From Paeniglutamicibacter quisquiliarum (GTDB taxonomy: Bacteria > Actinomycetota > Actinomycetes > Actinomycetales > Micrococcaceae), in contig NZ_JAHRED010000005.1 of assembly GCF_019084045.1 (NCBI RefSeq), positions 186,001 to 250,000 of the forward strand: 64,000 nt of DNA, in the 5' to 3' direction. The notes under the pieces are model-generated. The model saw only the letters and a list, made by a program, of their open reading frames with translations. It was not told the DNA's origin and ran no database searches. Shown here one piece after another: positions 7,950-12,504 of the stretch. The stretch's first letter is position 1. The number at the start of each line of letters is the position of its first letter. The position numbers and the translations under genes are program-made.

Positions 7950-9746
7950 ATGACCGATACCTTGTTCTCACTTGCAGACAAGCTGCCCATGGAGGACCGT
8001 CTTCCTCCCGCCTACCCGGAACGGGCCGCCTGGGGCACCGGCCCCAAGCTCCGCGCCTGGCAGGCCGAGGCGCTGGACAAGTACTTCACCACCAACCCGC
8101 GCGACTTCATGGCCGTGGCCACCCCCGGCGCCGGCAAGACCACCTTCGCGCTGCGCCTGGCCAAGGTGCTGGTCGACGCCAAGACGGTCAACCGCATCAT
8201 CGTCGTCGCCCCCACCGACCACCTCAAGAAGCAGTGGGCCGACGCCGCCGGGCGGGTGGGCCTGGCCATTGACCCGAACTTCAAGAACTCCGACGGCCGG
8301 CACGGCGACGGCTACATCGGCGTCGTCGTCACCTACGCGCAGGTCGCCTCCAAGCCGATGCTGCACCGCGCCAAGACCGAGGCCGCCCGCACCCTGGTGA
8401 TCCTGGACGAGATCCACCACGGCGGCGACGCGCTTTCCTGGGGCGACGGCATCCGCGAGGCCTTCGAACCCGCGGCCCGGCGCCTGGCGCTGACCGGAAC
8501 CCCGTTCCGCTCCGACACCGCCGCGATCCCCTTCGTCGAATACGCCGAGGGGCCCGACGGCATCCGCCGCTCCAAGGCCGACTACACCTACGGCTACGGC
8601 AATGCGCTGCGCGACCACGTGGTGCGCCCGGTGCTGTTCATGGCGTACTCCGGCTCCATGCGCTGGAAGACCAGCTCGGGCGAGGAAATGGAGGCCCAGC
8701 TCGGCGAGGGCTTCACCAAGGACATCACCGCGCACGCCTGGCGCACGGCCCTTGACCCGGCGGGGGACTGGATCCCCTCGGTGCTCCAGGCCGCGGACAA
8801 GCGCCTGACCCGGGTCCGCCGGACCGTTCCGGACGCCGGCGCCCTGGTGATCGCCACCGACCACGAGGACGCGCGCGGCTACGCCGAGCAGCTGGAGAAG
8901 ATCTGCGGCGAAAAGGTCACCGTGATCCTGTCCGACGACGCGGGCGCCTCGAAGAAGATCGACGAGTTCTCCGCCGGCGATTCGCGCTGGATGGTCGCGG
9001 TGCGCATGGTGTCCGAGGGCGTCGACGTGCCCCGGCTGTGCGTGGGCGTCTACGCCACCTCGACCTCCACCCCGCTGTTCTTCGCCCAGGCCATCGGCCG
9101 CTACGTGCGCAGCCGAAAGCGCGGCGAGGTCGCCTCGATCTTCCTGCCCTCGGTGCCGGTGCTCATGGCACTGGCCAACGAGATGGAGACCGAGCGCGAC
9201 CACGCCCTCGACCGCCCGGAGAAGCACTTCCAGGACCCGGACTACAACCCAGAGGACGACCTGGTCGCCGAGGCCAACCGCGAGGAAAAGGCCAGCGACG
9301 AGCTGAACAAGCAGAAGTTCGAGGCGCTGAACTCCAACGCCTCCTTCGACCGGGTGCTCTTCGACGGCGGCGAGTTCGGCACCGGCGGCGCCGTGGGCTC
9401 CGAGGAGGAGGAAGACTTCCTGGGCATCCCCGGGCTGCTGGACGCCGACCAGGTGGGCGTGCTGCTGCGCCAGCGCCAGGCCGAACAGGTCTCGCGGCGC
9501 AAGGTGCGCAAGGGTGCCGAGGAGGCGGCCGCTTCCCCGGTGGTCGACCACCGGGCGCTGATGGAGATGCGCTCGACGCTGTCCAAGAACGTCTCGGCCT
9601 GGAGCGCGCGCACCGGCACCCCGCACGGGGTGATCCACACCAAGCTGCGCGAGGTGTGCGGCGGGCCGGCCGTTGCCCAGGCCAATGCGGAACAGCTGCA
9701 AAAGCGGTTGAACAAGCTGCAGGGCTGGTTCATCGGCAAGAAATAG
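7950..9746 (+). CDS. DEAD/DEAH-box (SF2) helicase
   Basis: A 598-residue ATP-dependent nucleic-acid helicase of the XPB/Ssl2-like type. Motif I is TPGAGKT (residues 58-64), motif II is DEIH (about 153-156), motif III is TGTPF (about 181), and motifs IV-VI lie in the second RecA fold, including SEGVDVPR (about 355) and QAIGRYVRSR. A charged, mostly helical C-terminal 170 residues follows, ending in the helix AEQLQKRLNKLQGWFIGKK. GGAGGTG precedes the ATG. Orthologues are widespread in actinobacteria without a defined role; DNA repair is a plausible inference. Its last 85 bp and its terminator are duplicated 2 kb downstream. Confidence 0.9.
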   Translation: MTDTLFSLADKLPMEDRLPPAYPERAAWGTGPKLRAWQAEALDKYFTTNPRDFMAVATPGAGKTTFALRLAKVLVDAKTVNRIIVVAPTDHLKKQWADAAGRVGLAIDPNFKNSDGRHGDGYIGVVVTYAQVASKPMLHRAKTEAARTLVILDEIHHGGDALSWGDGIREAFEPAARRLALTGTPFRSDTAAIPFVEYAEGPDGIRRSKADYTYGYGNALRDHVVRPVLFMAYSGSMRWKTSSGEEMEAQLGEGFTKDITAHAWRTALDPAGDWIPSVLQAADKRLTRVRRTVPDAGALVIATDHEDARGYAEQLEKICGEKVTVILSDDAGASKKIDEFSAGDSRWMVAVRMVSEGVDVPRLCVGVYATSTSTPLFFAQAIGRYVRSRKRGEVASIFLPSVPVLMALANEMETERDHALDRPEKHFQDPDYNPEDDLVAEANREEKASDELNKQKFEALNSNASFDRVLFDGGEFGTGGAVGSEEEEDFLGIPGLLDADQVGVLLRQRQAEQVSRRKVRKGAEEAAASPVVDHRALMEMRSTLSKNVSAWSARTGTPHGVIHTKLREVCGGPAVAQANAEQLQKRLNKLQGWFIGKK

Positions 9747-9814
9747 CTGCACGTAAAAGCCGGCGGCCCGCGCGCGTTGGAGGAGTTCCAATGCACGCAG
9801 GCCGCCGGCTTTTT
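9663..9814 (+). repeat. Direct repeat, copy 1 (helicase 3' end plus terminator)
   Basis: This stretch of about 150 bp matches 11661-11809. Over the first 76 bases I count five mismatches; the rest, across the stop codon and terminator, has roughly ten more differences including a small gap. Copy 1 is the intact version that encodes the helicase C-terminus. The two copies bracket the alpha/beta-hydrolase gene. Confidence 0.9.
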
Positions 9815-9815
9815 G
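9755..9815 (+). terminator. Terminator of the helicase gene
   Basis: The arms AAAAGCCGGCGGCC (9755-9768) and GGCCGCCGGCTTTTT (9800-9814) pair around a 31-base loop that contains a weak inner GTTGGA/TCCAAT hairpin. A T-run forms the end of the 3' arm. Confidence 0.85.
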
Positions 9816-9905
9816 CTTCTCCCGCCGTACCGGGCAGGGCTTTTCGCGGCTGCTCGTCGTCGCTTCGGGTAGACGGCGCGGGGCCGGGAAGCGGCGCATG
9901 CCCGG

Positions 9906-9994
9906 CAACAAGTGGCAACAAGTGGACGGTTGAATGTGTCGCAGGACACGCTGGCCTAGGGGCGCCCGGGCGCCCCTACCGAACAACGTTGTTC
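9906..9994 (+). promoter_or_regulatory. Control region of the hydrolase gene with two perfect palindromes
   Basis: CAACAAGTGG is repeated twice in tandem (9906-9925). AGGGGCGCCCGGGCGCCCCT (9958-9977) is a perfect 20-bp palindrome and GAACAACGTTGTTC (9981-9994) is a perfect 14-bp palindrome with a central CG, as in LacI-family operators. They end 17 bp before the ATG, next to the ribosome binding site GAGGAGGGGG. No regulator gene lies nearby. Confidence 0.6.
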
Positions 9995-10011
9995 CACCGA
10001 GGAGGGGGCTT

Positions 10012-11625
10012 ATGCCTAATCAACCCAGAGGCCGCCGGTATCGTGCCGCGCTGGCCGCCGCGTGCGCCGGTGTGCTTGGCCTGGTCGTCATGGCGGCGCC
10101 GGCGGGTGCCGCACCGGATCGGGAACCGGAAGCGGCCGCCGCGTCGATGGTTTCCGTTCCCGACGTCGTCGGGCCGATCGCGGTGACTGCCGAAAGCTAC
10201 CCGTTTTCGACCTTGGGGCGCGCCAGGGTGCCCGTCGACATCGCCGAACGCGGTTTCGTCGAGGAGGAGTTCTTCCTGTCCGGGACCGCGAACGTATACG
10301 ACAACCCGGACGGGTCGCTGCAGGTCGTGGACGCGGGCGTGCCCTACACCAACCACGTCCTGGTGCGCCGCCCCGCCAACCGGGCGGACTCCTCCGGGGT
10401 CGTGCTCGTGGATATTCTCAACGCCTCGAACGGGTTCCCGGGGGAGGACCACCTGCGGCGCATGTGGGACTGGGCCATGGAGGAGGGACACACCATCATC
10501 GGCGTGACGTCCAAGCCCATCCAGGTGGACGCGCTGAAGAACTTCGACCCGGAACGCTATGCGGACCTGACGTGGGATGTTGAGGACGTCAAACGGGAGC
10601 CGATCATCGCCGACCCGGCGGACCCCGGCTCGTTCGACCCGTTCATGGTCGTTCCGGGCGCCGAGGAGGGGCTGGCCTGGGACATCATCACACAGGTTGG
10701 CACGCTGCTTGAGAGCAATCACGGCCGTGCGCTCCTGGGTGGACAGAAGGCGAAGACAGTCCTGCTCATGGGCCAGTCCCAGTCCGGGATCTACCTCAAC
10801 ACCTACGCGTCCAACTTCCACCGCGCGGTGACCGAAGCCAACCGCGGACCGGTGTTCGACGGCTATCTCAACACGGTCGGTGCAGTTCTTGAGCGGCCGC
10901 TGCGCCAGGCGGAGACCGATGGCCTGGTGGTGGTGCCCGGCACTGAACCGGCACTGGACGTCCCCTTCGTCACTGTCACCTCCGAGGGCGATGCCGGGCT
11001 GTTCGGTGCCGCAACGCTGGCCGAGAAGGAGCTTCCGGCAAATCGGCGGCATTGGCAGGTTCCCGGAACCCCGCACACCGACCTGCTCTCCGCGGTGATT
11101 CCGGCCGACGAAGAAATCCTCAAGGCCGGGCGCCTCCCGAACACCGCGGTCCACGACGCGTCGTTCCGCGAATCCCTCAACACCTACCCGCTGGAACCCG
11201 CCATCATCGCTGCCGCCGAGGCCGTTGTGGACTGGAGCAAATCGCACAAGGACGCGGCGCCATCGCAGTGGTTCGAGCAGTCCGATGGCGCGCTCTCCCG
11301 GACCGCCGACGGAAACGTCTCGGGCGGTGTCCGCTACGGGCTCATGGAGCATCCACTCGGGCAGTACCGCGGCGCGGCGGCTCCGGGCGCGGTCTACGGT
11401 GCCATGGAGCTGATCTCGGCAGAGGACTTCGCCACGGCCTACGGCACCCGCGCGGACTACCTCGCGCTGATCGGCGAGGTCGACGCCGCCCGGATCAGGC
11501 ACGGCTATCTCACCGAGTGGGGCGCGGACTACTTCGTGGGAGTGGCCAACGGGCTCATGGACCGCATCGGGGTCCCTGCCGGCACTGCCGCTGCCGCCGC
11601 TGAAGAGCGGGGCGGCCGGGGCTGA
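10012..11625 (+). CDS. Secreted alpha/beta-hydrolase domain protein
   Basis: A 537-residue exported hydrolase. The signal peptide has an Arg-rich n-region (QPRGRRYR), a hydrophobic core and a predicted cleavage after AGA at about residue 34. The nucleophile elbow is GQSQSG, and GTPHTDLL near residue 360 probably carries the catalytic His; both fit the broad 'alpha/beta hydrolase domain' family whose substrates are mostly unknown. The ATG at 10012 has an excellent GAGGAGGGGG ribosome binding site, unlike the many leaderless neighbours. It lies alone between two copies of the helicase tail and has its own palindromic control region, which suggests it arrived as a unit. Esterase activity is inferred, not shown. 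Confidence 0.85.
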   Translation: MPNQPRGRRYRAALAAACAGVLGLVVMAAPAGAAPDREPEAAAASMVSVPDVVGPIAVTAESYPFSTLGRARVPVDIAERGFVEEEFFLSGTANVYDNPDGSLQVVDAGVPYTNHVLVRRPANRADSSGVVLVDILNASNGFPGEDHLRRMWDWAMEEGHTIIGVTSKPIQVDALKNFDPERYADLTWDVEDVKREPIIADPADPGSFDPFMVVPGAEEGLAWDIITQVGTLLESNHGRALLGGQKAKTVLLMGQSQSGIYLNTYASNFHRAVTEANRGPVFDGYLNTVGAVLERPLRQAETDGLVVVPGTEPALDVPFVTVTSEGDAGLFGAATLAEKELPANRRHWQVPGTPHTDLLSAVIPADEEILKAGRLPNTAVHDASFRESLNTYPLEPAIIAAAEAVVDWSKSHKDAAPSQWFEQSDGALSRTADGNVSGGVRYGLMEHPLGQYRGAAAPGAVYGAMELISAEDFATAYGTRADYLALIGEVDAARIRHGYLTEWGADYFVGVANGLMDRIGVPAGTAAAAAEERGGRG

Positions 11626-11657
11626 GTTGCCGCACTGGCTCCCGTTGGGCGCACCAT

Positions 11658-11738
11658 GCCGGGCCGGCCGTTGCCCAGGCCACTGCGGAACAGCTGCAAG
11701 AGCGGCTGCACTAGCTGCAGGGCTGGTTCATCGGCAGG
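11658..11738 (+). pseudogene. Remnant of the SF2 helicase 3' end
   Basis: Read in the helicase frame this gives AGPAVAQATAEQLQERLH, a TAG at 11712-11714, then LQGWFIGR, matching the last 28 residues of the intact helicase (GGPAVAQANAEQLQKRLNKLQGWFIGKK). The premature stop and the lost natural stop show that it is not functional. There is no sign of the rest of the helicase gene upstream. Confidence 0.85.
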
Positions 11739-11809
11739 ATAGCCGCACGCCAAGGCCGGCGGCCCGCGCGCATTGGAGACGTTCCAATGCACGCAGGCCG
11801 CCGGCTTTT
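11661..11809 (+). repeat. Direct repeat, copy 2 (degenerate helicase tail plus terminator)
   Basis: The partner of 9663-9814. It abuts the end of the hydrolase gene (stop at 11625) and the convergent pncA gene, so it may mark where the original helicase-pncA junction was. Confidence 0.88.
11755..11809 (+). terminator. Terminator copy downstream of the hydrolase gene
   Basis: GCCGGCGGCC (11755-11764) pairs with GGCCGCCGGC (11796-11805), followed by T4. It is the duplicated helicase terminator and now serves the hydrolase gene. Confidence 0.78.
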
Positions 11810-11868
11810 CCCGTGGCCGGGCAGCGCGCTCCCTCAATGCCCGGACCGGGTCCGAAGGGGGTGTGGGC

Positions 11869-12504
11869 TCAGCCCAGCGACAAGACCGTGACCTCTGCGT
11901 CGCGCAGTTCCTGCAGCACCGCGGGGGTGTTTTCCGGGTGAACGGCGGCGGTCAACGGCGCAATGACCGTGGTGGCCAGGCCCTGGTCCCTGGCATCCAG
12001 GGCGGTGGCACGCACGCAGTAGTCGGTGGCGATGCCCACGATGTCTACCGCGCCGATCCCCTGGCTGCGCAGCCAGTCGCCCAGCAGTGCCCCGGATTCA
12101 TCGTCGACCTCGTCGGCGTCGGAGCACAGGCGTCCCTCGAAGCCCGAATACGCGGCGGCGAAGCGGCCCTTGCGGAAGTGGTGGCCGATGAAGCCGGCGG
12201 CCCCGGACAGCTCCGGGTGCAGTGCGGCGCCGTCCGTGGCTGCAACGCAGTGCACCGGCCAGGACTCGATGAAGTCGGGGGTGTCGGAGAAGTGGGACCC
12301 CGGGTCGATGTGCCAGTCCTGGGTCGCCACAACCGCGGCGTAGGTGTCGGCGCGCTCGCGCAGCACCGTGGCGATGGAGGCCGCCACCGCGGCCCCGCCC
12401 TCCACGCCGAGGCTGCCGCCCTCGCAGAAGTCGTTCTGGACATCGACGATGATCAATGCGCGTGCCGCGGGTTGCTCCGGCGCGCTGGTTGGTTCCTGGG
12501 TCAT
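11869..12504 (-). CDS. pncA: Nicotinamidase
   Basis: A 211-residue isochorismatase-fold hydrolase that converts nicotinamide to nicotinate in NAD salvage. The catalytic triad is visible: D21 (IIVDVQNDF), K112 (RKGRF) and C163 (GIATDYCV). Metal ligands match D63, H65 and H71 (TQDWHIDPGSHF). It lies 22 bp downstream of pncB on the same strand, so the two consecutive salvage steps form an operon. Length and motifs are normal for PncA. Confidence 0.95.
   Translation of the reverse strand: MTQEPTSAPEQPAARALIIVDVQNDFCEGGSLGVEGGAAVAASIATVLRERADTYAAVVATQDWHIDPGSHFSDTPDFIESWPVHCVAATDGAALHPELSGAAGFIGHHFRKGRFAAAYSGFEGRLCSDADEVDDESGALLGDWLRSQGIGAVDIVGIATDYCVRATALDARDQGLATTVIAPLTAAVHPENTPAVLQELRDAEVTVLSLG

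Follow-up and report, generated by a model that had tools for sequence, protein, structure and literature searches.

Organization of the helicase–pncA region

The window, a stretch of 64,000 nucleotides from Paeniglutamicibacter quisquiliarum, contains an intact gene for an SF2-type helicase on the + strand (7950–9746) and, downstream of it on the − strand, a gene (11869–12504) that in congeners is the right neighbour of the helicase gene. We take this second gene to be pncA-like, following the label given in an earlier reading of the sequence alone (the sequence-only reading). The region between them comprises, all on the + strand, a first copy of a repeat in which the helicase gene ends (copy 1, 9662–9813), an inserted segment of about 1.85 kb that carries a hydrolase gene missing from all 14 congeners (9814–11659), and a second copy of the repeat (copy 2, 11660–11809).

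The coding part of copy 1 corresponds to the last 85 bp of the helicase gene, including the stop codon (9662–9746), and is followed by a strong terminator hairpin (about 9755–9813). Copy 2 consists of a decayed helicase 3′ end and a terminator-like hairpin. The copies are in direct orientation with a spacing of approximately 2.0 kb; positions 9662–9741 match 11660–11739 at 93% identity, and 9743–9813 match 11739–11809 at 90%. Across 152 aligned columns they differ by 13 substitutions and a single 2-nt deletion, the remaining 150 columns being 91.3% identical. The claim of the sequence-only reading that the helicase tail and terminator occur twice, in direct orientation, is borne out by this 152-bp segment recurring at 91% identity, and the premature stop codon it placed in copy 2 is present as well (AAG to TAG at 11712). 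It also described the original stop codon of copy 2 as lost; this codon is indeed out of frame through the 2-nt deletion, but the letters TAG are still there.

When copy 1 was used to search the own genome (40 of 80 candidates scored), copy 2 was matched at E = 1.6e-53, and no third full copy was found among the scored candidates, the other matches being hairpins on the opposite strand only. The repeat has no measurable extension beyond the terminators (41 of 500 shuffles scored equally well), and none of the other direct repeats of at least 40 nt listed for the whole window exceeded 72% identity. Both hairpins fold strongly on the + strand compared to shuffled sequences (z = −5.8 and −5.5). 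Stem positions were substituted in 1 of 48 cases, against 12 of 102 positions elsewhere in the repeat (Fisher p = 0.06), a contrast that hints that the copy 2 hairpin may have been kept since it now ends the hydrolase transcript. The sequence of the post-helicase hairpin varies between most species compared, and P. sulfureus and both copies in the window share one design. No Rfam element was detected within 9500–12000 at E ≤ 1.

The hydrolase gene and its upstream element

Exactly one gene lies between the two tails, as had been stated from the sequence: an open reading frame of 537 aa (10012–11625, + strand). Its product is a predicted hydrolase, with a match to the Pfam profile Abhydrolase_10 (PF20091) over residues 52–503 that scores 367 bits against a curated cut-off of 23. 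By eye, we recognized a signal-peptide-like N-terminus, a nucleophile-type motif (GQSQSG) and a GGAGG ribosome binding site ahead of the ATG at 10012, in agreement with the signal peptide and ribosome binding site called by the sequence-only reading. No relative of solved structure was found by sequence at E ≤ 1.

The double palindrome noted earlier upstream of the gene consists of two perfect palindromes, one of 22 bp (9957–9978) and an operator-like one of 14 bp (9981–9994). They are preceded by the core GCAANNNNTGGCAAC (9905–9919, + strand), an element common to some hydrolase relatives. This 15-base pattern has one match in the window against 0.03 expected, and is present in 4 of the 7 other genomes with a hydrolase homolog at E ≤ 1e-80. 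A screen of 196 loci placed it in front of the hydrolase gene in the own genome, Arthrobacter sp. MYb229, G740, and G528, in front of a GH3 glucosidase gene that immediately precedes the hydrolase gene in G074, and nowhere else. The loci of G276, G262, and G631, whose homologs also reach E ≤ 1e-80, and those of weaker homologs lack it. The MYb229 homolog shares the element found upstream of the gene in the window (0 of 500 shuffles matched equally well). G631 encodes a fusion of the hydrolase with a GH3 protein (L139, 1327–4473), whose end matches a cell-wall anchor weakly and below the threshold. From the distribution of the pattern and this fusion, the hydrolase gene seems to have moved together with its control element, and the enzyme may work with secreted glycosidases. 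The pattern spans several genera (L129, L138, L140, L130) and is possibly a regulator binding site.

Homologs of the hydrolase are patchily distributed. With at most three candidates scored per genome, they were found at E ≤ 1e-30 in 25 of 395 genomes of the family and at E ≤ 1e-80 in 4 of 396 genomes of the order, the own genome included in both counts; a second copy in the own genome was not detected. Arthrobacter sp. MYb229 (G105) encodes the best homolog, with 75% identity, in a genus where 1 of 18 genomes has a homolog at E ≤ 1e-80. This homolog does not adjoin the helicase, and we therefore name no donor. A donor locus pairing helicase and hydrolase was sought and rejected for MYb229, G074, G276, G262, and G131, where the helicase lies elsewhere. 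The proposed codon-usage check gave no foreign signal: 4 of 39 window genes, chosen by a GC3 heuristic, score lower than the hydrolase gene (z = −0.96).

In MYb229 the homolog is followed by a perfect hairpin with 22-nt arms; in the window, 34 bp separate the hydrolase stop codon from copy 2. The original terminator of the hydrolase gene thus seems to have been left behind, although sequence downstream of the stop codon is not significantly similar to that of the MYb229 homolog (82 of 500 shuffles). No repeat longer than 24 nt surrounds the MYb229 gene in the stretch searched. That gene is preceded by one that is presumably cysE; beyond the cysE-like gene, comparison with 17 relatives, each with 1.5 kb of sequence further on, gave no match.

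The site in congeners

The nearest named relative, P. sulfureus As4PL, has a helicase that is 99% identical. The helicase is single-copy in each of the 15 genomes of the genus, own included, and a query with its 41-aa tail gave one match in each of the 14 congeners and two in the genome of the window. At E ≤ 1e-30 the hydrolase is absent from all 14; at E ≤ 0.001, four of them hold just a relative with 27–30% identity. Of nine named congener loci, seven have pncA in view 3′ of the helicase, without a hydrolase gene, and two stop at contig ends. The helicase–pncA gap measures 122–134 bp in six of these loci and 383 bp in one.

The comparison suggested by the sequence-only reading thus shows sites with one helicase tail followed by pncA and no hydrolase. 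Relatives sharing the two-copy structure, or tails similar at chance level only, had been named as outcomes that would speak against an insertion, and neither was observed. Most simply, the one-tail, hydrolase-free arrangement is ancestral in the genus. Given the empty sites and single tails of the congeners, the module was most likely inserted in the lineage of the window, and the hydrolase was probably gained there rather than lost in every congener. The earlier proposal of an insertion behind the helicase is supported in this respect; the codon-usage check suggested with it gave no sign of a foreign gene.

Origin of the two tails and decay of copy 2

In a phylogeny of 85 columns, the two copies form a clade apart from P. 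sulfureus (UFBoot 94), with a branch length of 0.066 for copy 2 and 0.011 for copy 1; on these 85 columns, both copies would derive from the recipient lineage. At the stop codon and at four other coding positions (9674, 9689, 9692, and 9701), the two copies agree with each other and differ from P. sulfureus. The states at these four positions are also present elsewhere in the genus: those at 9674 and 9692 in one congener each, that at 9701 in 6 of 14, and that at 9689 only in the most distant congener. All five substitutions private to copy 2 are nonsynonymous, the premature stop included, and are accompanied by the frameshifting deletion. A single substitution, a synonymous one that two congeners also have, was assigned to copy 1. 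The private lesions show that copy 2 decayed in place, and together with the shared states they suggest that it was made in the lineage of the window and is probably not the tail of a diverged donor. Set against half of the synonymous divergence of the helicase from P. sulfureus (0.17), the branch length of copy 2 (0.066) points to an event that lies far back on the branch leading to the window, with a wide error. The spacer after copy 2 shows no demonstrable match to P. sulfureus (143 of 500 shuffles as good), nor does the one after copy 1 (80 of 500).

These observations disfavor one of the alternatives offered by the sequence-only reading, an exchange in which the donor DNA brought a helicase tail with it, as copy 2 shares the states of copy 1 and its private changes are lesions. 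A donor near-identical to the recipient is possible. In homology-facilitated illegitimate recombination, hydrolase-bearing helicase DNA of a very close relative would pair with the recipient, its other end being joined illegitimately inside the recipient tail. Such recombination is reported from E. coli conjugation and from three naturally competent species (PMC3240628), and joining on one side only has been put forward as a way in which former gene 3′ ends move downstream (PMC5361080). We nevertheless regard it as rather improbable here: it presupposes a donor more closely related than P. sulfureus that already had the hydrolase in place, an arrangement seen in 0 of 14 congeners, and the identity of the helicase to P. 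sulfureus shows no jump near the 3′ end, although a near-identical donor would leave none. The other alternative offered, replication slippage, brings in no foreign gene on its own; local re-copying combined with capture of DNA would fit.

Related structures at the helicase end

At the helicase–pncA junction of MYb229, a direct repeat of 131 bp with 90% identity (L016, 7725–7855 and 13544–13674) flanks an operon in 5.7 kb. The four proteins of this operon that were scanned are a helix-turn-helix and TetR regulator, a beta-keto acid cleavage enzyme, a thioesterase and a BCCT transporter, and we assume the operon to be of carnitine type. The repeat appears to cover the 3′ ends of both convergent genes together with the terminator, which argues for a duplication of the target itself. 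Glutamicibacter sp. PS has a related operon (79% identical) at this junction, with no repeat around it. MYb229 holds both the closest hydrolase homolog found and this repeat, on different contigs. In Glutamicibacter-type loci with pncA in view (L014–L024), the helicase–pncA gap ranges from 85 bp to 5.5 kb and its contents differ.

The genome G046 has its helicase tail doubled over 68 bp at 98.5% identity (L169, 1558–1625 and 1711–1778), without a cargo gene. The copies lie 153 bp apart from start to start, with a hairpin-like sequence between them as judged by eye. Here the right neighbour in view is a gene for a putative secreted CAP-type protein instead of pncA, and only the helicase end is common to the cases. 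Such a cargo-free copy lends some credit to a two-step history for the window, in which the helicase tail and terminator were first duplicated locally in tandem and the hydrolase was inserted between the copies later, perhaps by ordinary recombination. This would require two events at one place, and in the window as well as in MYb229 the cargo is enclosed by the two copies; we consider it unlikely.

The edges of the repeats differ from case to case (152, 131, and 68 bp, one reaching into the opposite gene) in genera that are distant from each other. This bears on a site-specific integration at the helicase 3′ end by an integrase, with the remainder of the element lost since. Gene 3′ ends are common attachment sites of genomic islands, and the window keeps its intact copy next to the gene, an arrangement also produced by islands that reconstitute the gene end. 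However, the hydrolase is the sole plausible gene among open reading frames of at least 100 aa in the 1.85-kb insert (9814–11659), with no recombinase gene among them, the repeat spans 152 bp, and that of MYb229 reaches past the terminator to include 3′ sequence of the opposite gene. As the insert has no integrase, the repeat is long and its edges differ case by case, we judge this the least probable of the alternatives. The insert likewise shows no sign of an insertion sequence or transposon, lacking a second plausible gene of at least 100 aa and inverted repeats at its edges beyond the hairpins.

Decayed tails were sought in 23 loci of the family, MYb229 included, with a helicase–pncA gap of at least 380 bp or with pncA out of reach, and only MYb229 was positive. 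A scan of 80 family loci (1.05 Mb) for repeats of at least 60 nt, at least 80% identity and more than 200 nt apart returned the MYb229 pair only, which speaks against a general tendency of gene ends to be duplicated. Within 454 kb of the own genome, the window included, the other local repeats were two putative tRNA genes and repeats inside two proteins. Additional tail matches in G193 and G252 were set aside, being weak and on other contigs. A statistical hotspot at the helicase end is not established by a comparison of 2 of 394 genomes with 0 of approximately 880 other gene ends (p = 0.095), in which the latter number is a rough estimate, MYb229 was found by DNA only, and detection was unequal between the sets. 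The recurrence is therefore suggestive, and statistically unproven. We raise only tentatively, and consider improbable, the broader idea that the helicase 3′ end in Micrococcaceae is a recurrent site of integrase-free duplicative capture, at which repair around the terminator hairpin would re-copy approximately 70–150 bp of the gene end and sometimes trap DNA, the extra terminator supplying the newcomer with a transcript end and so aiding its persistence.

A model for the acquisition of the hydrolase

The explanation that we favor, and hold to be probable on balance, is that a foreign hydrolase gene with its own upstream element inserted between helicase and pncA after the split from P. sulfureus, duplicating approximately 150 bp of recipient sequence. 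The insertion itself would have duplicated the helicase 3′ end and terminator, either through a staggered break, fill-in and end joining around captured DNA, or through a template switch of replication near the hairpin that returned upstream and captured passing DNA. Ku, required for end joining of the Ku type, is encoded in the genome (E = 8.9e-50); no junction scar that proves a repair route was found. The helicase-side copy would then have stayed intact, and the pncA-side copy, relieved of coding constraint, would have decayed. The copy 2 hairpin persists, and may close the hydrolase transcript ahead of pncA.

A circle that held the hydrolase together with a copy of the junction, for instance one excised from another cell with the same repeat structure, would on integration by a single crossover (Campbell type) yield exactly such repeats, and reinsertion of circles is the model proposed for repeats flanking transposed Arabidopsis genes (PMC2869330). 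The circle must already carry the tail and terminator of this lineage, however, which merely postpones their origin. Moreover, all nine plasmid records that match the hydrolase do so at 22.8–34.4% identity, and viral contigs contain no close relative. These results also argue against a phage or plasmid as carrier, and we find integration of a circle very unlikely. As remaining alternatives to a single duplicating insertion, prior duplication, one-sided joining and circle integration are possible, in that order.

Relation to known systems and significance

Gene insertions flanked by direct repeats of the target are already known as a kind, and the present case is a well-preserved member, with relatives that have a gene-free site and a single repeat copy. 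It resembles genomic islands at gene 3′ ends in its duplicated gene end with the intact copy on the gene side, and differs in its insert without integrase, its longer repeat, and the different edges in MYb229. Among small variable segments in bacteria, 10–18% are flanked by direct repeats, of which 66–94% are shorter than 30 bp (PMC2884548). These segments are likewise small, lie between conserved genes, vary in presence and have direct repeats at their base; there deletion between repeats is considered, whereas here the repeat is a gene end and terminator of 152 bp and gain is favored. Homology-facilitated illegitimate recombination (PMC3240628; PMC5361080) also places foreign DNA beside homology without a mobile element and can leave old 3′ ends downstream, but the window has no detectable donor-derived homologous arm. 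The transposed Arabidopsis genes (PMC2869330) share a repeat made of target-site sequence, which is mostly genic and single at the site of a relative; those plant nuclear genes move within the genome, whereas here no second copy of the gene was detected. Among the papers listed by a literature search, with subscription journals mostly outside its scope, none was recognized as a description of this pattern.

Entry of a single gene without an integrase or insertion sequence is hard to see, since its scars fade. The scar at this locus can still be read and polarized against relatives, and a like structure surrounds other cargo at the same junction in another genus. A gene end and terminator repeated on either side of an imported gene provide a testable signature for a wider survey. 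Though small in scale, the locus illustrates clearly how bacteria may acquire genes without a recognizable mobile element.
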